From: a virus
DNA length: 27,309 nt
Virus record (IMG/VR): IMGVR_UViG_3300032401_000066
Span: 1-27,309 of that record
Strand: one strand, 5' to 3'
Of this stretch, positions 13,645-27,309 are shown piece by piece. The translations under genes and the position numbers were made by a program. The first letter of the stretch is position 1. Every line of letters begins with the position of its first letter. The notes below the pieces were generated by a model, which was not told the origin of the DNA, did no database searches, and saw only the letters and a list, made by a program, of their open reading frames with translations.

Positions 13645-14550
13645 TCAATGGTTGCAGTTGCCAAGTGGGGTGCCATGGAGTTCTTTTCCTTTGTTGAGCA
13701 TCATCCGCAATCTAAACAATGCCATGCGTTCAATTTGCTGTACCCGTGATGGCGCAACACCAAACTTTGCGGCAATCTCAGCCCACGTTAGCGGCTCTTG
13801 CAGCCTACGACTGCGAAGGACAAACTTAGAGCGCTCGTCTAAATACTTATCAATTAGCTCTAGCATTTCTTCCGCTTGATGGCTGATGCTAAGTTCATCC
13901 ATATCAATCAATGACTTAGGGTCAGCGATCATATCAATCAGCGATAATGTTTCACTTGCTGCTGATATTGCATCCAAGCTATGCACTGCATGACTGCGGC
14001 GCAATGCATCGTGGATAGTATTTATGTCAACGCCGATATGCTCTGCTACTTCTATTAGTGTCGGTGTGCGGCCAATGCGCTGCCCTAGGTCTGATGTAGT
14101 ACGAGCTATCTTTGACAGCAAGTCATGCAACCCAGTCGGTAATCTAATCATCGCATCGCTTTGCGATAATGCACGTTGGATGCCTTGCTTTATCCACCAG
14201 TAGGCATAGGTTGAAAACTTATAGCCGCGTGATGAATCAAATAATTCAACCGCTCTGGCAAGCCCGATATTACCCTCTTGGATGAGGTCCATTATTTCAA
14301 GTGACTTGCGCCTTCGGTTTTCATACTTCTTTGCTACATGCACCACTAGCTGTAGGTTGCATTGCATAAACCGCTCACGCGCGCGCAGGCCGCTGCGTAA
14401 TAGCCGCTGCTCTGCATCTGTCAACGGTCGCTCTAGCTGCTGTAATTCACGCATCTTGGCGATACGTCTGCCGTATTGGATCTCCTGGTCCACTGTGAGC
14501 AATGGATACCGTGCAATCTCGTTAAGGTAGCTTTTGAATGATGGGGACAT
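13645..14550 (-). CDS. Sigma-70 family RNA polymerase sigma factor
   Basis: The 301-residue protein is a full group-2-like sigma factor without region 1.1. Region 1.2: SFKSYLNEIARYPLLTVDQE (4-23). Region 2: NLQLVVHVAKKYENR, DLIQEGNIGLARAVELFD, RGYKFSTYAYWWIKQGIQR (108-126), IRLP. Region 3: about 150-195. Region 4: LTWAEIAAKFGVAPSRVQQI (254-273) helix-turn-helix. It should bind host core polymerase and guide it to promoters. Compared with E. coli sigma-70, Gln437 is kept (Gln122) but Thr440 is Gln125, and Arg584, Glu585 and Arg588 are Pro268, Ser269 and Gln272, so promoter preference may differ from the host's. The likely origin is a cyanobacterial sigma gene. It is convergent with the lysis genes. 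Confidence 0.93.
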   Translation of the reverse strand: MSPSFKSYLNEIARYPLLTVDQEIQYGRRIAKMRELQQLERPLTDAEQRLLRSGLRARERFMQCNLQLVVHVAKKYENRRRKSLEIMDLIQEGNIGLARAVELFDSSRGYKFSTYAYWWIKQGIQRALSQSDAMIRLPTGLHDLLSKIARTTSDLGQRIGRTPTLIEVAEHIGVDINTIHDALRRSHAVHSLDAISAASETLSLIDMIADPKSLIDMDELSISHQAEEMLELIDKYLDERSKFVLRSRRLQEPLTWAEIAAKFGVAPSRVQQIERMALFRLRMMLNKGKELHGTPLGNCNH

Positions 14551-14794
14551 GATGAATCCATTAGTTCATACAATGGAAGCACAGTTCCATGGCGCAGCCA
14601 ATGCAAGTGCATTACGAGCATTGCACGCCAAGGGTGATTGGAATGGCTTGCTGGAATATGCGCTGCTGCTAGTTGAGCTAGAAGCAAGCCAGCGGTCGCA
14701 AATCCAATGGTTAGCCCGTGAGGCTTGTGGTGGCATAGGCCGCACAGGAAGTAGCGAAGAACCCGCCAGCCTCGGGGATCTCCATGGTGCATGA
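14549..14794 (+). CDS. Small helical protein on the opposite strand, unknown
   Basis: This is the only + strand frame with protein-like content inside the - strand block. The 81 residues include an amphipathic helical core, ASALRALHAKGDWNGLLEYA and LLVELEASQRSQIQWLAREA, followed by a Gly/Ser-rich tail. The competing - strand frame here is rich in His, Leu and Arg and does not look like a protein. The ATG at 14549 overlaps the sigma start codon on the other strand; ATG at 14573 is an alternative that frees the sigma start. The 3' 84 bases overlap the end of the next - strand gene. A real gene is likely but not certain; function unknown. Confidence 0.5.
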   Translation: MMNPLVHTMEAQFHGAANASALRALHAKGDWNGLLEYALLLVELEASQRSQIQWLAREACGGIGRTGSSEEPASLGDLHGA

Positions 14795-15094
14795 CCTTAC
14801 GTTGCACCAATGAACGCAGGTGCCGCAATGCGAGCGGTGTGGAGCGCCTGTAGTGTCCAGCCAGTTTGGTAGTGGTGTAGCGTCTAGCTCAGATGCAGTA
14901 GGTGGCGGAATGTGTCTCCAGTTCTTGTAGATCACTGCATTGCGCAGCGTTTGTGTCCCTACACCCCACCTTCTAGCAAGTTGCGGCAATGTCCCAACTG
15001 GGCCTTTCATTACATAGATGCGAGCAAGGCGCACTTGCTCTTCAGTTAGCCGAGCGTTGTAGCATTTTTCACCGCGTTCTATTGCCGGTTTCAT
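14711..15094 (-). CDS. Helix-turn-helix protein with Cys-rich metal-binding tail
   Basis: The start is set at the ATG forming an ATGA overlap with the gene before it; an ATG at 15106 would add four residues. Of the 127 residues, 15-62 form a DNA-binding helix-turn-helix (LTEEQVRLARIYVMK, then LPQLARRWGVGTQTLRNAVI, KNWRHI), similar to the small HTH units found in phage homing-type or regulatory proteins. The tail has Cys90, Cys93, Cys97, Cys102 and Cys117 (HCGTCVHWCNVRSC), a likely zinc or iron-sulfur site. A regulatory role is inferred. It is the last clear gene of the long - strand operon before the sigma gene. Confidence 0.75.
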   Translation of the reverse strand: MKPAIERGEKCYNARLTEEQVRLARIYVMKGPVGTLPQLARRWGVGTQTLRNAVIYKNWRHIPPPTASELDATPLPNWLDTTGAPHRSHCGTCVHWCNVRSCTMEIPEAGGFFATSCAAYATTSLTG

Positions 15095-15255
15095 GTGTGG
15101 TTCCAATGGCGGATTACGCCAGCAACTATGAATGTGTTAGTGGTTAGGTAACTGCCAAGAATGGCAAGGCGCACCAGAGCCACCCGATCAGCGATGCGGG
15201 GGTTAGGATGCGCCTTCTCGCCTAGGGCTTTGGCTAGGACGCGCCAGTGGGTCAC
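15091..15255 (-). CDS. Small membrane protein, GTG start
   Basis: The 54-residue product starts at a GTG lying in a GTGA overlap with the upstream gene and preceded by GGAGG four bases away. An upstream ATG in the same frame would add 23 implausible Cys/Arg-rich residues. Residues 1-26 are basic (THWRVLAKALGEKAHPNPR), and 27-48 form a membrane segment (ALVRLAILGSYLTTNTFIVA, then GVI). It ends RHWNHT. No family is recognised. Its stop overlaps the start of the HTH protein by ATGA. A membrane-associated role in the early phase is all that can be inferred. Confidence 0.62.
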   Translation of the reverse strand: MTHWRVLAKALGEKAHPNPRIADRVALVRLAILGSYLTTNTFIVAGVIRHWNHT

Positions 15256-20437: not shown

Positions 20438-21770
20438 ACCGTTTAGCCAGTCGCGCTTGGTAGACGCGTTCCGCCCATCCTCGCTTGTAGCCGCGCTGCT
20501 GCGCTAGCTCGCGCAGGTCGTCGAGGGATTGAGCGGTGCCTTGCTGGCGGCGCTGCTGCCGTTGCACCTCAACCAGCTCCCCCTCAACCTGCTGCAGCTC
20601 GCGCACCTCAGCGGCGAACGTATGGCCGCACTCACCGCACTGCTTAGCCTGGCTAGCCATTGCAGCAAAGCACTGCGGGCACACCTTGACCGATGGCGCC
20701 TTCTCCCGGTCACGCTTAGCTAGGCCCTCCAACGTCCACTCACGCGGTTCTAGGTGGTGGCCGAGGCGCAGCGTGTTGCCGACGTGATCCAGCACCACTG
20801 CAGCAGCCTTGCCGGGTGATGGCCGCAGGCAGCGACCGATCATCTGCAGATGCAGGCTGGTGCTAGCGGTAGGCCGCAACAGGATGCAGCCGCCGACGCT
20901 GGGCACGTCTACGCCTTCACCTATAAGTGCGCAGCTCGTCAGGATGCGTATGCGACCAGTACCTAGCGCTTGCAGCAGGTCACGGCGTTGCTCGCTGGTC
21001 ATGCTGCCGTCGATGCTGGCGGCTGGGATGCCGGCACCCATGAACAGCCGTGCTACTGCCTCGGCATGTGCCACTGAGCAGCAGAAGGCGATCGCTGTCT
21101 GGCCGTCTAGGTGTTTGCGGTAGTGGCTCAGGCAGTCGCCCATGATCGTGCCGATACGGTGCTCAGCCTCACGGGTGTCGAAGTCACCCATCCGTTTGCG
21201 TAGGCCAGTGGTGTCAAACCCCGGCGGCGCCAGCACCCGTGCAGGCGCGAGGTAGCCGTTATCGGTTAGCCACGCAGCGCTAGGGCCTTCAACCATCGCC
21301 TGGTAATGCTCGCCAAGACCGCGACCGTCGAGCCTGATTGGGGTAGCAGTGACGCCGAGCAGATGCGCTTGGTGGAAGTGTTCCAGTGTGCGCGCCCAGG
21401 TGCCGGCATTGCTGTGGTGTGCTTCGTCGATGATCACCAACTGGAAGAAGTCACGCGGCAACTTATGCAGCCTGCGGGCCAAGGTCTGGATTGATGCCAC
21501 CTGCACAGCTGCAGATAGGTCCATGGCGCGGTTAGCGGCGATCACACCATGCGGCATTGGCAAGCTGCGGCACGCTTGGTCCAGCAGCTCTTGCCTGTGT
21601 ACCGCGATCAGCACGCGGTTACCTTTCTTGGCGGCAGCTTGGGCGATGTGGCTAAAGCAGACGGTCTTGCCAGCGCCGGTAGGCAGTACCGCCAGCACTT
21701 TGCGATGGCCTAGTTGGTATTGCAGGCGGATGGCGGTGATCAGCTCGGCTTGGTAGGGGCGGAGGTTCAT
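20427..21770 (-). CDS. SF2 DEAD/DEAH-type DNA helicase with zinc ribbon
   Basis: The start is the ATG in a TGATG overlap with the methyltransferase; the open frame reaches 21983, but the added residues would cover the neighbour. The 447-residue protein has motif I PTGAGKT (30-36), motif II DEAH (115-118), motif III TATP (141-144), motif V GEGVDVP and motif VI QMIGRCLRPSPGK (309-321). A zinc ribbon follows with Cys364, Cys367, Cys378 and Cys381, and then a Gln-rich helix. Related phage helicases unwind or remodel replication and recombination intermediates. It is translationally coupled to the nuclease downstream. Confidence 0.92.
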   Translation of the reverse strand: MNLRPYQAELITAIRLQYQLGHRKVLAVLPTGAGKTVCFSHIAQAAAKKGNRVLIAVHRQELLDQACRSLPMPHGVIAANRAMDLSAAVQVASIQTLARRLHKLPRDFFQLVIIDEAHHSNAGTWARTLEHFHQAHLLGVTATPIRLDGRGLGEHYQAMVEGPSAAWLTDNGYLAPARVLAPPGFDTTGLRKRMGDFDTREAEHRIGTIMGDCLSHYRKHLDGQTAIAFCCSVAHAEAVARLFMGAGIPAASIDGSMTSEQRRDLLQALGTGRIRILTSCALIGEGVDVPSVGGCILLRPTASTSLHLQMIGRCLRPSPGKAAAVVLDHVGNTLRLGHHLEPREWTLEGLAKRDREKAPSVKVCPQCFAAMASQAKQCGECGHTFAAEVRELQQVEGELVEVQRQQRRQQGTAQSLDDLRELAQQRGYKRGWAERVYQARLAKRYGA

Positions 21771-22735
21771 CAGTCCATCCCCTCTATATCGAGCAATTCT
21801 GTTTGATCTGGAGTGCGCGTATCTTCTACCGCAATCTGCATATTCTTGATCGCTTGTTTGTAATACGACTCTTTTAGCTCGATGCCGATGCCACGGCGGC
21901 CAAGCTGCACAGCGCCGTATACCTCGCTGCCAACGCCCATGAACGGGGTCAGCACCGTTTCGCCAGGGTTGGACCGCAGGCATATGGCGCGGTCAATCAC
22001 GTCCAGTTGCAGCGGGTGGACGTGTTTCTCATCATCAGGATCTTTGCCATCACGGAACGGCAGCACCCGCCCCATGTTGATGTCATCCCAAATAGACGAG
22101 GCGTAACGGCGCCAGATCCAATGGCTAAAGCGGTTTTCAGTTTGCTTGCCTTTCCATCCTTTGTACTTATGCAGCTCTACCGGGATAGGGCATTCGCCGG
22201 CGTAGTGGTCTAGCCCGGTTGGATGCGCAACTGGGATAGTATTCTCACCACTGCGCCGAAAGATCAACAAATAATCAGCACTTGCAACGCCTGCGTAAGC
22301 GCCATCATCAACAATTGTTTTATGCGCCAAGCTCTTTACCATTGTTCGGTTTCGCACCCACAACGGCTCTTTCCATATCGTATGGCGAGCCACAAAATGC
22401 CAGCCGTGCTGTTGATGCAATTCAATAATTTTGCCGGGTAAATCAATCAATGAATCTTTGCCGCTGTTGCCGCTTGATATATCAGTGCAATGCACAGCGG
22501 TTAAGCGGCCAGGCAATGTCAAGCGGTGCAGATCTTTGACTACAAAGCCGTAATGATCCATAAATTGATCATAGTCTTTGCAGTTGCTAATATCACGCTC
22601 GTTAGAGCTGTAAACATACAGTCCAGCAAATGGCGGCGAGTAGATCGAGAAATGGACAGAAGCCGCCGGCAGGCTTTGCATTACTTCAATGCAGTCGCCG
22701 TTATAAATTGCATAGCGGTCAGTGATCATAGCCAT
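21770..22735 (-). CDS. DNA methyltransferase (beta-class N4-cytosine/N6-adenine type)
   Basis: The 321-residue protein has the beta-class order: catalytic motif IV SPPF (33-36) near the N terminus and the AdoMet site near the C terminus (HPLQLDVIDRAI 240-251, then TPFMGVGSEVYGA 263-275 and RRGIGIELKESYY 280-292). SPPF/SPPY is more usual in N4-cytosine enzymes; TPF replaces the common DPF. No restriction enzyme gene is nearby, so this is an orphan, probably protecting phage DNA from host restriction or marking it. Start could also be the ATG at 22729, which gives an ATGA overlap with the SNF2-like gene upstream. Confidence 0.9.
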   Translation of the reverse strand: MAMITDRYAIYNGDCIEVMQSLPAASVHFSIYSPPFAGLYVYSSNERDISNCKDYDQFMDHYGFVVKDLHRLTLPGRLTAVHCTDISSGNSGKDSLIDLPGKIIELHQQHGWHFVARHTIWKEPLWVRNRTMVKSLAHKTIVDDGAYAGVASADYLLIFRRSGENTIPVAHPTGLDHYAGECPIPVELHKYKGWKGKQTENRFSHWIWRRYASSIWDDINMGRVLPFRDGKDPDDEKHVHPLQLDVIDRAICLRSNPGETVLTPFMGVGSEVYGAVQLGRRGIGIELKESYYKQAIKNMQIAVEDTRTPDQTELLDIEGMD

Positions 22736-24099
22736 GATGGAACCTCAATAGGATTGGTGTTGTATTCTTTGCGCTGGATGTCCAGCGAGTGATTCATTTC
22801 AGCAACAAGGCTGCCAAACATTTGCTCAGCCTGCCCGCGTTTGCGATGCAGGTTTTGCATGATTCGCCGTTCGCCTTCGGTCAAGATGATGTCAACTGTT
22901 ACAGGTCGCTTTTGACCAAATCGCCAGCAGCGCCTAACCGACTGGTAATACTGCTCAAAGCTATGCGAAGGAAAATAAGTGATGTGGTTGCAGACTTGAA
23001 AGTTCAAGCCCCAAGCGCCAATCTTTGGCTTAGTGATTAGCACCCTTGATCGACCTTCCGCAAAATCAATCAACCGGCGCTCCTTGGCCTCATCTTTGTC
23101 CTTGCCGGATACCTGTATTGCGCCTGGTATCAGCCGCTCTAGCAGGTCGCCCTCTTCGTTCAAATGGCACCACACCAGCGCCGGCTGGCCAGTATCGGCA
23201 ACCATGCTGGCCACTTGCTCGCATCGCTCCACAACCGTGCGTTTCTTTTCAGCGCGTTGCTCCCTTAGGTCTGTTGCTGGTATGGCAAACAGCATCCCCT
23301 CGGGAATGGTGCTGGTCTCAATCAAGTGGTCAATCTCATTCAGCGGCGGCAAAGTAAACCGGCCATCATCAAAGCCAAGGTCTGATGGCTGGCGGCAAGC
23401 CCTCGCCCAGCTTGTAACCCACCTCCAAAACGGCTGCTCAGCGTGACCCTTGAAGCGCCATTTGGGGGCCTCGCCGTACATGCGGCGGCTAGTCAAATTG
23501 TTCTGATCGTTCTTGAAGAACCGGGCGAGCATGTCCATGTGGCCCATGTAGCCAAGGGCTTCAGAGCTGGTGCCTAGTTCGATGAAGTCGTTAGGCGCAG
23601 CAGTGGCGGTGGCTAGTAGTCGGTAGGGCACCTTGCGCATGAAATCGGTGATCTCATTGCGGCGGGCGCCGTCGAAGCTCTTAAGGATGCTGCTCTCATC
23701 GCAGACCACGCCGGCAAAGTCAGCCGGTTTGAAATGCTCAAGCCGCTCGTAGTTGGTGATCACGATGCGGCCCGGCACGGTGCCATCGCTGCTGCGGTAA
23801 CACTCAATGCCAAACTTTTCACCCTCGCGGATGGTCTGCGCAGCAACCGCTAAGGGGGTCAAGATCAGCACCGGCTTGCCAGTGTGTCGAGCCACGTTCT
23901 CAGCCCATGTGAGCTGCATAGCGGTTTTGCCTAGCCCGCAGTCGGCGAAGATCGCAGCGCGACCCTTGCGCACAGCCCAATCCACCAGCGATTGCTGAAA
24001 ATCAAACAACTGGTCAGGCATAAACACCGGATCAAAACCGTGCGTCGCACCCTCATGTGTCTTTTGGTCAAGGAAGTCTTTGTAGGTCATGGCAGCCAT
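22726..24099 (-). CDS. SNF2-like SF2 helicase/ATPase
   Basis: The 457-residue protein has motif I DCGLGKT (53-59), motif Ia LILTPLAVAAQT, motif II variant CDES (133-136), motif III ATATAAPND (163-171) and motif VI SVRRCWRFGQKRPV (387-400), as in phage SNF2-type helicases. It is a double-strand DNA translocase, probably moving proteins off DNA or helping recombination. It is the first gene of the - strand operon, starting 15 bases beyond the palindrome at 24114-24130; AAGG five bases before the ATG is a modest ribosome site, and ATG at 24090 is an alternative. It overlaps the methyltransferase and the pair is probably coexpressed. Confidence 0.91.
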   Translation of the reverse strand: MAAMTYKDFLDQKTHEGATHGFDPVFMPDQLFDFQQSLVDWAVRKGRAAIFADCGLGKTAMQLTWAENVARHTGKPVLILTPLAVAAQTIREGEKFGIECYRSSDGTVPGRIVITNYERLEHFKPADFAGVVCDESSILKSFDGARRNEITDFMRKVPYRLLATATAAPNDFIELGTSSEALGYMGHMDMLARFFKNDQNNLTSRRMYGEAPKWRFKGHAEQPFWRWVTSWARACRQPSDLGFDDGRFTLPPLNEIDHLIETSTIPEGMLFAIPATDLREQRAEKKRTVVERCEQVASMVADTGQPALVWCHLNEEGDLLERLIPGAIQVSGKDKDEAKERRLIDFAEGRSRVLITKPKIGAWGLNFQVCNHITYFPSHSFEQYYQSVRRCWRFGQKRPVTVDIILTEGERRIMQNLHRKRGQAEQMFGSLVAEMNHSLDIQRKEYNTNPIEVPSWL

Positions 24100-24105
24100 C
24101 TGGCC

Positions 24106-24133
24106 TTGCCACCGTAGCAGCCGCTGCTACACT
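24106..24133 (+). promoter_or_regulatory. Promoter for the RHH-primase transcription unit
   Basis: TTGCCA (24106-24111) and TACACT (24128-24133) are separated by 16 bases and match the sigma-70 consensus at five and four of six positions. Predicted transcription would begin near 24140, only about 17 bases before the GTG of the RHH gene. The spacer contains a perfect palindrome. Confidence 0.55.
24114..24130. promoter_or_regulatory. Operator-like palindrome in the promoter spacer
   Basis: GTAGCAG and CTGCTAC form perfect seven-base arms around CCG. The site fills the spacer and touches the first three bases of the -10 element, so a bound protein would block polymerase. It is also 15 bases from the start of the divergent SNF2-like gene. 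The RHH protein encoded just downstream is the obvious candidate ligand. Confidence 0.55.
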
Positions 24134-24156
24134 GTGCAAGCACCTAGCCCAGCACC

Positions 24157-24321
24157 GTGCGCTTAAGTCATCCAACCCATATACGACTAACACCAGACCA
24201 GTTGCAGCGCCTTGACTCATGGCGTGGTAATCGCATGAGTCGCGCCACTGCTATACGGCTACTACTGGAGCAGTCGCTTGACCTGCACCTAAACGGCATC
24301 CTGCCAGCCACTAAGCGATGA
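24157..24321 (+). CDS. Small ribbon-helix-helix protein, GTG start
   Basis: The frame runs from GTG (24157) to a TGA that overlaps the primase start by ATGA. The 54 residues fit the Arc/CopG ribbon-helix-helix fold: strand THIRLTP (7-13), helix DQLQRLDSWRGN (14-25), turn MSRATAIRLLLEQSLDLHL (27-45). RHH proteins bind DNA as dimers through the strand and typically repress their own promoters. Shorter versions from ATG 24235 would lose the strand, so the GTG start is preferred. The next upstream in-frame stop is at 24145. No classic ribosome site is visible, but a promoter and palindrome sit directly before it. Confidence 0.68.
   Translation: MRLSHPTHIRLTPDQLQRLDSWRGNRMSRATAIRLLLEQSLDLHLNGILPATKR
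24214..24241. repeat. Inverted repeat inside the RHH gene
   Basis: GACTCATG (24214-24221) and CATGAGTC (24234-24241) are perfect eight-base arms, 20 bases centre to centre, about two helical turns. It could be a second binding site for a dimeric regulator upstream of the primase gene, or be a chance result of coding sequence. Confidence 0.45.
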
Positions 24322-26369
24322 GCCTTACCGAAGAGCTTGCACGCCTACCCGATAGGTGGGGATATGTCGCTGTCGATGATCAAAAGCGTCCTTATCAGAC
24401 CAAGTGGCAGGAGCGACCACTAGATAAAGATGGCTTGCAGGCTGAGCTAGAAGCTGGCAGCGCCAAGGCCATTGGCGTGTGCTGCGGTGTCCCATCTGGT
24501 GGTTTGCTGTTTCTTGATCACGATGGTCGCAGCGCTAGCACAATCCTCCGCGACTGGGGTTGCCCCATGTCGTCTATGCCGCGTAGCTGGACCGTCACCT
24601 CTGGCCGTGATGGCAGGTTTCAGGTCATCTACCGCGTACCGGAGCAGTACTGGCCAGACATCGCCACGCGCAAATACAAATCCGGCATCACCGACTCCGA
24701 CAACAAGCCAGAGCAGATCGAACTCCGATGGACCGGTTGCCAGTCCGTTGTAGCTGGTGCGCACCCAACCACTACCGGCTACCACTGGGTTGCCAAATAC
24801 AGCCCCGAAGACCTCGACCTAGCAGAAGCGCCGCTGTGCCTGATTGAGAAAATGCTCAAGCCAGTGGCTGAGCCGTTGCCATTGCTGGCGGCTTCTGATG
24901 ACGCAGACCGTGCGCGCTCATACCTTGATGCGCTATCCAGCAGCCGCGCTGATGACTATGACGACTGGCTAAACGTTGGCATGGCGCTCCATAGCGTTGG
25001 TGATGACAGCCTCCTAATCGATTGGGAGCACTGGTCTGCGCAATCCGGCAAGCACAAGCCCAGCGACTGCCAGCGCAAGTGGAAGAGCTTCAAGAAGTCC
25101 GGCATCAGCCTTGGCACCCTTGGCGACATGGCCAAGAAAGACGGCTGGCGCTCGCAGCGCCGTGAACCTAGCCGCACCGTTGCCAGTGGGGCCAGCGATG
25201 GTGGGGGCGATAAGCCGCCGATCATCACCAAGCCGGAGAAGCTGGAAACCGCAGAGCTGTTGGCACTGCTGCGCAGCCAGGCTGATGAGATCCGCTACAA
25301 CGTCTTCACCCAGCAAATCGAGATCAAAGGCAAGGTCGTTGACGGTGCCGACCGCTTCTACCTCAAGCTGGCTGAAATGGGTTACAAGGTTGGCAAGGAG
25401 CTAGCCATTGACTGCCTAGTCCAAGTCGCCAATGAAAACTTTTACAACCCAGTCACCGAGTACCTGCTCCATTGCGAGCAGCACGTTGAGCCGACCTACA
25501 TCGATGGCCTAGCAACCGCGTACCTCAGGCCAGGTGATGGCGGCACCAGTATTTACGACGAGATGCTCAAGCGCACGCTTATCGGCGCTGTTGCCCGTGC
25601 TTTTGACCCTGGCTACAAGCACGACACCGCTTGCGTCATCATGGGCGATCAAGGCGCGTACAAGTCCAGTTTCTGGGGGTGCCTTGGCGGTCCGTTCTAT
25701 TCCGATGCCTTAGGCGACATCAGCACCAAGGATGATGTAATGGTGCTGCACCGTTCCTGGATTATGGAATGGGCAGAGCTTGATCACATTACCAACCGCA
25801 AGCACGCCGGCCAAGTTAAGGCGTTCCTCTCGCAAGCGGTTGACCTACTTAGGGTTCCATACGGTAAAGCCGTTGAGGCATTTCCTCGCCGTGGCATTAT
25901 TGTTGGCACCACCAACAAGACCGCTGGCTTCTTAGTTGATGAAACCGGAAACCGCCGCTTCTGGGTAATTCCTACAACTAAAACCCAGGTCGATCAAATT
26001 AACACCGCAACTCTGCTGATGGAGCGCGATGCGATTTGGTCTGCTGCTGTTCACGCATACCGCAACGGCGAAACTAATCGCCTCCCGCTTGCGATGGAGC
26101 TTGCAGTTCAGCAGGAAAATGATGCCTACATGATTGAATCACCATGGCGTTCAGCCATCCTTACCTACCTTGCTGATCGCCGTTCCATGGAGGTATTGAC
26201 CTCTGAGGAGATCCTCGCCAAGGCCATCCAGAAGCCCATGGAGCGCCAGACCAAGGTGGACCAAATGCAGGTTGCATCCATCCTGAAAGAGCTTGGTTGG
26301 ACCAAACACCGCGAATCATCCGGCAAGCGGCGTTGGTACTACCAGCTAGACGACCAACCTAGGGGCTAG
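24318..26369 (+). CDS. Primase-helicase (prim-pol, PriCT and VirE-like ATPase)
   Basis: The 683-residue protein has three parts. Residues 5-175: bifunctional primase/polymerase fold with Asp67 and Asp69 (LLFLDHDGRSAS) as likely metal ligands and WTVTSGRDGRFQVIYR. Residues 198-276: PriCT-2-like domain (DDYDDWLNVGMALHS then a WEHWSAQS region and WKSFKKSGISLGTL). Residues 415-600: VirE/D5-like P-loop ATPase with Walker A GDQGAYKSS (443-451), Walker B IMEWAELD (482-489), sensor VGTTNKT (529-535) and DETGNRRFWVIP (541-552). It should initiate phage DNA replication by priming and unwinding. It overlaps the RHH gene by ATGA and is followed by the noncoding repeat region. Confidence 0.93.
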   Translation: MSLTEELARLPDRWGYVAVDDQKRPYQTKWQERPLDKDGLQAELEAGSAKAIGVCCGVPSGGLLFLDHDGRSASTILRDWGCPMSSMPRSWTVTSGRDGRFQVIYRVPEQYWPDIATRKYKSGITDSDNKPEQIELRWTGCQSVVAGAHPTTTGYHWVAKYSPEDLDLAEAPLCLIEKMLKPVAEPLPLLAASDDADRARSYLDALSSSRADDYDDWLNVGMALHSVGDDSLLIDWEHWSAQSGKHKPSDCQRKWKSFKKSGISLGTLGDMAKKDGWRSQRREPSRTVASGASDGGGDKPPIITKPEKLETAELLALLRSQADEIRYNVFTQQIEIKGKVVDGADRFYLKLAEMGYKVGKELAIDCLVQVANENFYNPVTEYLLHCEQHVEPTYIDGLATAYLRPGDGGTSIYDEMLKRTLIGAVARAFDPGYKHDTACVIMGDQGAYKSSFWGCLGGPFYSDALGDISTKDDVMVLHRSWIMEWAELDHITNRKHAGQVKAFLSQAVDLLRVPYGKAVEAFPRRGIIVGTTNKTAGFLVDETGNRRFWVIPTTKTQVDQINTATLLMERDAIWSAAVHAYRNGETNRLPLAMELAVQQENDAYMIESPWRSAILTYLADRRSMEVLTSEEILAKAIQKPMERQTKVDQMQVASILKELGWTKHRESSGKRRWYYQLDDQPRG

Positions 26370-26564: not shown

Positions 26565-26849
26565 ATGCAAGAGATCAAAGTCCGTTTCGAGCCCGCTGAC
26601 CTGACCGCTTTGGACCGCCAAGCGGCAGCATCAGGCACCAGCCGCTCAGCGTTCATTCGCAACAAAGCGTTAAGACCGCCGGTTGCACGGTTGACCACGG
26701 TGGAGTACCATGCGCTGGTTGCTGATGCAGTTAGCGCCATGCGCGGTGACTTGCCTCGGCTGCAGGTTGAATATCTCGTTGCTTATGTCATCACCAGACT
26801 TGATCAACATCAGCGCCAAGCAGTCGCCGGTCATCAACCGACTACATGA
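26565..26849 (+). CDS. Ribbon-helix-helix (CopG/MobC-like) DNA-binding protein
   Basis: The 94-residue protein opens with an RHH unit: strand EIKVRFEP (3-10), helix ADLTALDRQAAASG (11-24), turn and helix TSRSAFIRNKALRPP (25-39). The C-terminal 55 residues form another helical part (HALVADAVSAMRGDLPRLQV then a VEYLVAYVITRLDQHQR segment), as in MobC-like proteins of plasmids and phages. It likely binds the repeats that end ten bases upstream of its start, as autoregulator or as origin-binding protein. It is the second RHH gene around the primase gene. The next gene overlaps its 3' end. Confidence 0.82.
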   Translation: MQEIKVRFEPADLTALDRQAAASGTSRSAFIRNKALRPPVARLTTVEYHALVADAVSAMRGDLPRLQVEYLVAYVITRLDQHQRQAVAGHQPTT

Positions 26850-27003
26850 CTGCATGACGCAAGCGATGGCATACGCCCATGCCATCCGCGACAATGCTCA
26901 AGATGACGGCGTGCCCATCCCCATGGAACTCGTCGCCAGCTTTCAAGACGATTACAACAACATCATCGCTGCACTCAATGAAGCTCACAACATCGCAAGC
27001 TGA
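26785..27003 (+). CDS. Small hypothetical protein between RHH and clamp genes
   Basis: The 72-residue reading starts at ATG 26785 (MSSPDLINISAKQSPVINRL), continues DCMTQAMAYAHAIRDNAQDD and ends with a VPIPMELVASFQDDYNNIIA segment. Codon third positions are G/C-rich from about 26800 onward, which supports translation inside the 65-base overlap with the RHH gene; a start at 26854 would avoid the overlap and give 49 residues. It is helical and acidic, of unknown function. The stop lies 26 bases inside the clamp gene, suggesting translational coupling. Confidence 0.6.
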   Translation: MSSPDLINISAKQSPVINRLHDCMTQAMAYAHAIRDNAQDDGVPIPMELVASFQDDYNNIIAALNEAHNIAS

Positions 27004-27309
27004 TTTAGACCATGCACTGCGCACCATTGCACCTGCAGTAGGCACGCGCAGCTCACACCCGATCCTTGACTGCTGCCTCATCACTGCTGGCGGTGGCAAT
27101 GTCACCATCACCGGCTACAACCTTGACCTAGGCATCACGGTGACCATCCCAGCAGTGGTCAATACCGCTGGCGCTGTAGCGCTGCCGTATCGGCTCCTAG
27201 CTGGCCTTGTAAGCCGTATGGACGCCGGCGATGCCGTGGACATCACAGATGGCGCTGTGAGCGCTCCTGGTGGCTCCTATGGCCTTGCGGTGTCCGATGC
27301 TGCGGATTA
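26978..27309 (+). CDS. dnaN: DNA polymerase III beta sliding clamp, 3' partial
   Basis: The frame opens at ATG 26978 and is still open at the window end, giving 110 residues, about the first of the three domains of a beta clamp. The start MKLTTSQADLDHALRTIAPA, then GTRSSHPILDCCLI, VTITGYNLDLGITVTIPA and GAVALPYRLLAGLVSRM follow the N-terminal pattern of bacterial DnaN, and the wording NLDLGI is close to cyanobacterial versions. The clamp encircles DNA and holds the polymerase. A phage copy would give the phage control over processivity or replace a host clamp. A reading from an earlier start is blocked by the overlap with the small gene before it. The remaining domains are beyond the window. 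Confidence 0.85.
   Translation, partial: MKLTTSQADLDHALRTIAPAVGTRSSHPILDCCLITAGGGNVTITGYNLDLGITVTIPAVVNTAGAVALPYRLLAGLVSRMDAGDAVDITDGAVSAPGGSYGLAVSDAAD

Follow-up and report, generated by a model that had tools for sequence, protein, structure and literature searches.

CopG is a repressor with the ribbon-helix-helix (RHH) fold. In plasmid pMV158, this small repressor is co-transcribed with a downstream replication gene and controls it (as described in PMC5717011). In the Arc/Mnt immI region of Salmonella phage P22, a small RHH autorepressor of 53 aa is encoded downstream of its operator, which lies inside two overlapping face-to-face promoters; record NC_002371 gives the arc promoter at 14793-14821 (+), the mnt promoter at 14798-14826 (-), and the arc operator at 14798-14818. 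Arc contacts bases through Gln9, Asn11, and Arg13 (as given in PMC12645479). Additionally, pseudo-symmetric bidirectional promoters that engage RNA polymerase in either orientation have been described in Escherichia coli (Warman et al.; PMC12825309), where five tested promoters had a shared -10 element and starts 10-23 bp apart. Cluster A mycobacteriophages fall into superinfection immunity types, in which repressor-operator specificities diversify between related phages (as reported in PMC6550527). The locus described here shares features with these systems, and we consider it probable that it encodes an Arc/CopG-like autorepressor acting on a symmetric two-way promoter, with exchangeable specificity types.

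The window (the whole stretch of DNA analyzed) comprises 27,309 bases of an IMG/VR virus record and is a genome fragment, with a tail tape measure gene at one end and a DnaN-like gene at the other. The locus comprises the following features:

21770..22735, minus strand: DNA methylase gene, second in the leftward operon (N6_N4_Mtase, E 1.8e-15)
22726..24099, minus strand: divergent SNF2-like helicase gene, starting at 24099 or, likelier, at 24090
24106..24133, plus strand: predicted rightward promoter, -35 TTGCCA at 24106-24111, 16 bp, -10 TACACT at 24128-24133
24111..24139, minus strand: predicted leftward mirror promoter, -35 TTGCAC at 24139-24134, 17 bp, -10 TACGGT at 24116-24111
24114..24130, no strand: predicted operator, a 17-bp dyad GTAGCAGC-C-GCTGCTAC with 8-base arms and a 1-base centre
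24157..24321, plus strand: predicted RHH autorepressor gene, GTG start, 54 aa, kept upstream of the primase in relatives
24318..26369, plus strand: primase/VapE-like helicase gene (VapE-like domain, E 1.3e-59; PriCT_2, E 1.4e-19)

The original prediction had named a 54-codon, GTG-started frame that overlaps the primase start by ATGA. Both were recovered from the open reading frames, the RHH stop overlapping the primase ATG at 24318, and the overlap suggests that the primase gene is probably co-transcribed with the RHH gene. The divergent operon had been placed 15 bases from the palindrome, which holds for a start at 24099 but not for the likelier start at 24090, 24 bases away; the latter is preferred because the matches of most relatives begin at residue 3 or 4. 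Searches of viral contigs yielded 51 RHH relatives with the RHH protein and 329 relatives with the primase (80 kept), and further alignment-based scans raised the total to 348 RHH ORFs, representing 163 non-redundant gene-plus-promoter entries. The RHH gene was directly 5' of the primase gene in nearly all sufficiently long loci.

The AlphaFold2 model of the RHH product (pLDDT 89.1) is a strand-helix-helix with ribbon residues His8 and Arg10 and helices at 13-23 and 29-45, and the monomer thus shows the N-terminal strand and two helices of the Ribbon-helix-helix superfamily. In a second-look structure comparison, the RHH domains of NikR, ParD, VapB12, and ParG matched with Z of 4.2-5.8, values that may reflect only a common arrangement and were therefore weighed jointly with the residue covariation described below. 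The NikR domains were the best matches (Z 5.5-5.8; for 2hza, 45 residues, rmsd 2.0, 29% identity), which bears out the claim of an RHH protein. In contrast to NikR, the window protein is without a metal-binding domain and belongs to a different kind of genome with different target genes. Foldseek alone returned nothing significant for the window protein (best E 1.6), and no convincing RHH relative emerged when solved structures were searched by sequence. The window protein was also without any Pfam match, not reaching the gathering cut-off of RHH_1 (CopG), to which 3 of 23 diverse family members matched at E 0.016 or worse. A weak profile match was obtained to phrog_4738, a transcriptional repressor (E 0.0011 for the window protein; among the 23 diverse members, 14 matched with E no higher than 0.1, and the best reached 2.6e-08). 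P22 Arc gave no BLASTP alignment with the window protein and matched 13 PHROGs without phrog_4738 among them, so that the two proteins have neither sequence similarity by BLASTP nor a PHROG family in common, and the window protein falls outside the Arc family (PHROG 228 and kin).

The half-sites of the predicted operator are (G)TAGC and GCTA(C), with centres 11 bp apart, compared with 9 bp for TAGA/TCTA in P22. A perfect seven-base palindrome had been proposed within the promoter; it is present there, but its arms are 8 bases long. When the 57-base gap was shuffled 2000 times with its dinucleotides preserved, arms of 7 bases or more with a loop no longer than 3 arose in 106 shuffles, and arms of 8 bases or more with a loop no longer than 1 in 16. 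Because shuffles match it (16 of 2000), the palindrome of the window alone is mildly unusual and weak evidence, and its weight comes from its conservation among relatives. A dyad of the form xTAGC-N7-GCTAx, with small variants, was found at the same place in 158 of the 163 non-redundant relatives, a result in favour of the original prediction.

The five entries without the dyad in place were L329, which is cut by a contig end, and four rearranged loci (L038, L042, L043, and L047), in which the RHH gene is downstream of other genes on its own strand. In rearranged loci, the operator was found where it had been predicted beforehand, ahead of the operon's first gene and 2.3 kb upstream of the RHH gene. 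It heads the operon in all four rearranged contigs with enough upstream sequence (L038, L041, L042/L127, and L043), and the left gene was divergent in both of the two examined. All rearranged loci are of the type with Arg in the ribbon and GTAGC in the operator, indicating that the match between residue and operator persists over 2.3 kb. We also scanned IMG/VR viral contigs for the element only. Two exact patterns, drawn from relatives already seen, returned 73 and 22 loci, many of them on the contigs of those relatives, and 93 of these 95 loci (94 of 96 with the window) have the RHH gene just downstream on the plus strand; given the origin of the patterns, the near absence of matches without the gene is the point of the scan. 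Among the loci with the gene, Arg always occurred with GTAGC and Leu always with TTAGC. One of the two exceptions, L193, ends at a contig edge, and the other, L148, is a different system. In this unrelated record, the same 36-base element pattern (1118-1153) has on one side a gene resembling a lambda-type repressor (405-1061, -) and on the other a Cro-like ORF (+), as read from their translations, and represents chance or convergence.

The exact site GTAGCA-N5-TGCTAC (0 mismatches) is present as a single copy in the window. Of 26 long relatives, 17 had one copy of exact GTAGC-N7-GCTAC, one had two, and eight had none, the latter being Leu or Gln types or, in L126, carrying GTATC half-sites. 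A regulon of many operator sites is therefore disfavoured, since most long relatives with the exact site have just one. No plasmid copies of the cassette were found in a plasmid scan, and a scan of genome_contigs gave a single match, in a phage-like contig of a MAG.

The genes beside the element are diverse. The left neighbours fell into 25 sequence clusters (153 entries). The right neighbours (156 entries) fell into four, of which the VapE-type cluster holds 138, another primase cluster 15, and the last two 2 and 1. As the neighbours differ across clusters, the element can be seen as a hub where varied operons dock on both sides. In L174 and in L230, a phage-like contig that had been binned with a betaproteobacterial MAG, the gene following the RHH cassette is exonuclease-like, as read from its translation, instead of a primase. 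A tentative alternative, to which we give rather less than even weight, is a control of the copy-number type, in which the RHH protein would set the level of the replication gene as in the CopG/rep pair and control of the left operon would be incidental. Such control has been described in pMV158 (PMC5717011), and a small RHH gene before a replication gene is what most loci show (VapE-type in 138 of 156 and the other primase cluster in 15 of 156). Against this reading, the operator of the rearranged loci heads an operon that starts with helicase and methylase genes, and an exonuclease-like gene lies behind the RHH gene in two relatives plus L230. The locus differs from CopG/pMV158 in that the replication gene is a phage primase-helicase, the promoter is symmetric and two-way, and a second operon runs divergently.

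The promoter TTGCCA-16-TACACT of the original prediction was located at 24106-24133 and is conserved, with a -35 of TTGACA in some relatives. Against the two-way reading, the leftward promoter fits the sigma-70 consensus less well, and a 9-of-12 consensus scan did not list it. Symmetry was counted in a set of 136 distinct elements of 45 bases each. All 136 have the final T of the rightward -10, and 133 have its mirror image, the A of the leftward -10, although the bases between these -10 ends and the dyad were not mirrored. On the left, 117 elements have a TTG at 8 or 9 bases from the dyad (exact TTGACA in 18); on the right, 129 have one at 8-10 bases from it, as the leftward -35 (exact TTGACA in 13). 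The 19 elements lacking the left TTG and the 7 lacking the right one also count against this reading. A simple ORF rule called the left gene divergent in 140 of the 152 entries that were long enough; in the other 12, too, an ORF of 56 aa or more starts on the minus strand no further than 33 bases away, and two of these, L358 and L250, were inspected fully. A comparison of the decay of the mirrored -35 at loci with a non-divergent left gene had no power, the doubtful L358 and L250 both being divergent. The -10 elements are separated by 12 bp, close to the roughly 13 bp in P22 when annotated promoter ends are taken as -10 ends. In contrast to P22, the operator arms here are part of the -10 elements, a single repressor is present, the partners are replication genes, and the specificity types are exchangeable. 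Unlike the E. coli bidirectional promoters, this element has two separate -10s with predicted starts about 36 bp apart, and its symmetry would double as an operator.

It is improbable, in our judgment, that the RHH protein represses its own operon only, with the mirror elements of the reverse strand serving as extended contacts or as initial-transcript sequence. The rightward promoter alone scores as sigma-70-like, and part of the symmetry would come free because the dyad is symmetric for the sake of the protein, but conservation tracks TTG..TAnnnT on the reverse strand rather than a perfect extended dyad, the reverse-strand spacing is 17 compared with mostly 16 on the other side, and divergent genes of 25 sequence clusters start beside the element. 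Type II antitoxin function, with autoregulation through the RHH domain, is very improbable. The fold neighbours do include the antitoxins ParD, VapB, AtaR, and TacA, but no toxin gene is adjacent, the window neighbours are a primase-helicase and an SNF2-like helicase with a methylase, the partners vary freely on both sides, and the protein exceeds its RHH domain by too little to accommodate a tail that binds a toxin.

The sequences show the gene, the dyad, the promoter symmetry of the two strands, the covariation of residue and base, the exchange of an island, and an operator that stays with the operon's start; binding, repression, the use of both promoters, and timing are inferred. Under the preferred reading of an autorepressor on a two-way promoter, the 54-residue RHH protein would repress both its own RHH-primase operon and the divergent helicase/methylase operon. 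It would bind the 17-bp dyad, whose arms would form parts of both -10 elements of two overlapping face-to-face promoters, and the accumulated protein would shut RNA polymerase out of both. Replication and DNA-modification genes might thereby be limited by delayed negative feedback. Control of both units by one bound dimer had been suggested. The mirror promoter and divergent genes favour control of both units, but a pair of dimers, each on its own half-site with centres 11 bp apart, is likelier than a single dimer. Such a locus would provide a defined early control point for cyanosiphophages.

Ribbon residue 10 and the operator change together. With Arg10, both half-sites had G as their outer base in 90 of 90 cases. 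In the right half-site, the outer base was C with Gln in 38 of 38 and T with Leu in 29 of 30, the exception having A. The left half-site varied more, its outer base being C in 20, A in 9, T in 7, and G in 2 of the Gln type, and T in 23 and A in 7 of the Leu type. Across 119 unique proteins, the normalised mutual information between residue 10 and the right outer base was 0.982, with 0.775 for the next column, a covariation that is partly inherited linkage because gene and operator adjoin; residue changes inside the RHH family itself may be few. The column most tied to the operator base is the ribbon residue aligned by eye with Arg13 of Arc. The changing operator base is position 3 of the -10 element, the position at which sigma-70 is tolerant. 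Residue 10 may thus read the outer base of each half-site, and specificity could change while the promoter is kept, because sigma tolerates a change at this position. With a single residue tracking a single base across more than 100 repressor-operator pairs, these loci form a natural series on which the co-evolution of DNA recognition and promoter function could be tested.

The distribution of the types was compared with a primase tree built by a quick method, in which L022 forms a long branch. Of 113 entries, 106 were followed by an ORF of 250 aa or more, and 76 of these matched primase; 75 primases (score above 300 bits) were kept, 71 of them with both traits. The three classes required 21 changes on the tree of 75 primases, compared with an average of 24.3 for shuffled labels. 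Operator and residue changed together in independent pairs on supported branches by 8:0. In 10 of 12 unlike-type pairs, hand-picked from the tree, the tail-plus-primase DNA was 86-97% identical, whereas the promoter was 49-67% and the DNA-binding part 44-74% identical; in the remaining two, primase identity was 62% and 70%. In the pair L074/L024, the flanks are alike on both sides (78% and 89%), from which we infer an exchanged island of about 160 bp. As judged from these alignments, the promoter and the DNA-binding domain are exchanged as one such island, and would travel between phages as a single cassette. The R, L, and Q types occur together in metagenomes 3300042879 (L029, L112, and L244) and 3300035187 (L012, L069, and L272).

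Among cultured phages, S-H1, a phage of Synechococcus WH 7803, carries the RHH gene at L228:4001-4153 (14943-15095 of record MK105819) behind the same promoter-operator, with the element at 14901-14917 of that record. Its protein joins an Arg ribbon to a body of the Leu/Gln type, and G stands in its operator. No gene is annotated at this position in the S-H1 record, and none of the papers retrieved on ribbon-helix-helix proteins in cyanophages seemed to concern such a phage switch. On the strength of that search, a search on S-H1, and the S-H1 annotation, we take the switch as undescribed. S-H1 offers a ready test system for the repressor-operator pair. The nearest cultured primase relative is S-LBS1, in which SLBS1_A51 (L229:31899-32078), annotated as hypothetical, is a far-diverged RHH-like ORF in the syntenic place; the same operator was not seen there. 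Cluster A mycobacteriophages are temperate. In contrast, integrase is rare here, and the repressor is a 54-aa RHH protein beside the primase. Among the 26 long relatives, possibly incomplete genomes, tyrosine integrase (PF00589) was found in one and serine recombinase (PF00239) in none. The single tyrosine integrase is in a Leu-type phage (G014, the record of L131; 33907-34398, -). S-LBS1 encodes an integrase by Pfam match, and those who described the phage infer that it is capable of lysogeny (PMC6157547); lysogeny may therefore occur in the wider phage group.

A further idea, which we regard as speculative and put forward with some doubt, is that the cassette is a compatibility-group locus in these mostly non-integrating cyanophages, where the RHH protein would silence the replication promoter of a co-infecting phage of the same type. 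This would explain the near-random shuffling of ribbon classes over the primase tree, the exchange of a cassette of about 160 bp, and the coexistence of types within samples. If so, rare types would gain, and superinfection immunity would arise without lysogeny. If cross-repression is real, competition between co-infecting phages could be tested with a protein of 54 residues.

Additional genes of the window touch on transcription and replication. A phage-encoded sigma-70 factor with regions 1.2, 2, 3, and 4 was found at 13645-14550 (-) and could serve promoters of its own phage; S-LBS1 also carries a gene annotated like it. Between the primase gene and the DnaN-like gene lies a second RHH-type gene (26565-26849, +), which is NikA-like (Pfam PF21983, E 1.4e-07). 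The last gene, at 26879-27307 (+), encodes the N-terminal part of a homologue of the DNA polymerase III beta clamp (E 4e-09) and is cut by the end of the record.
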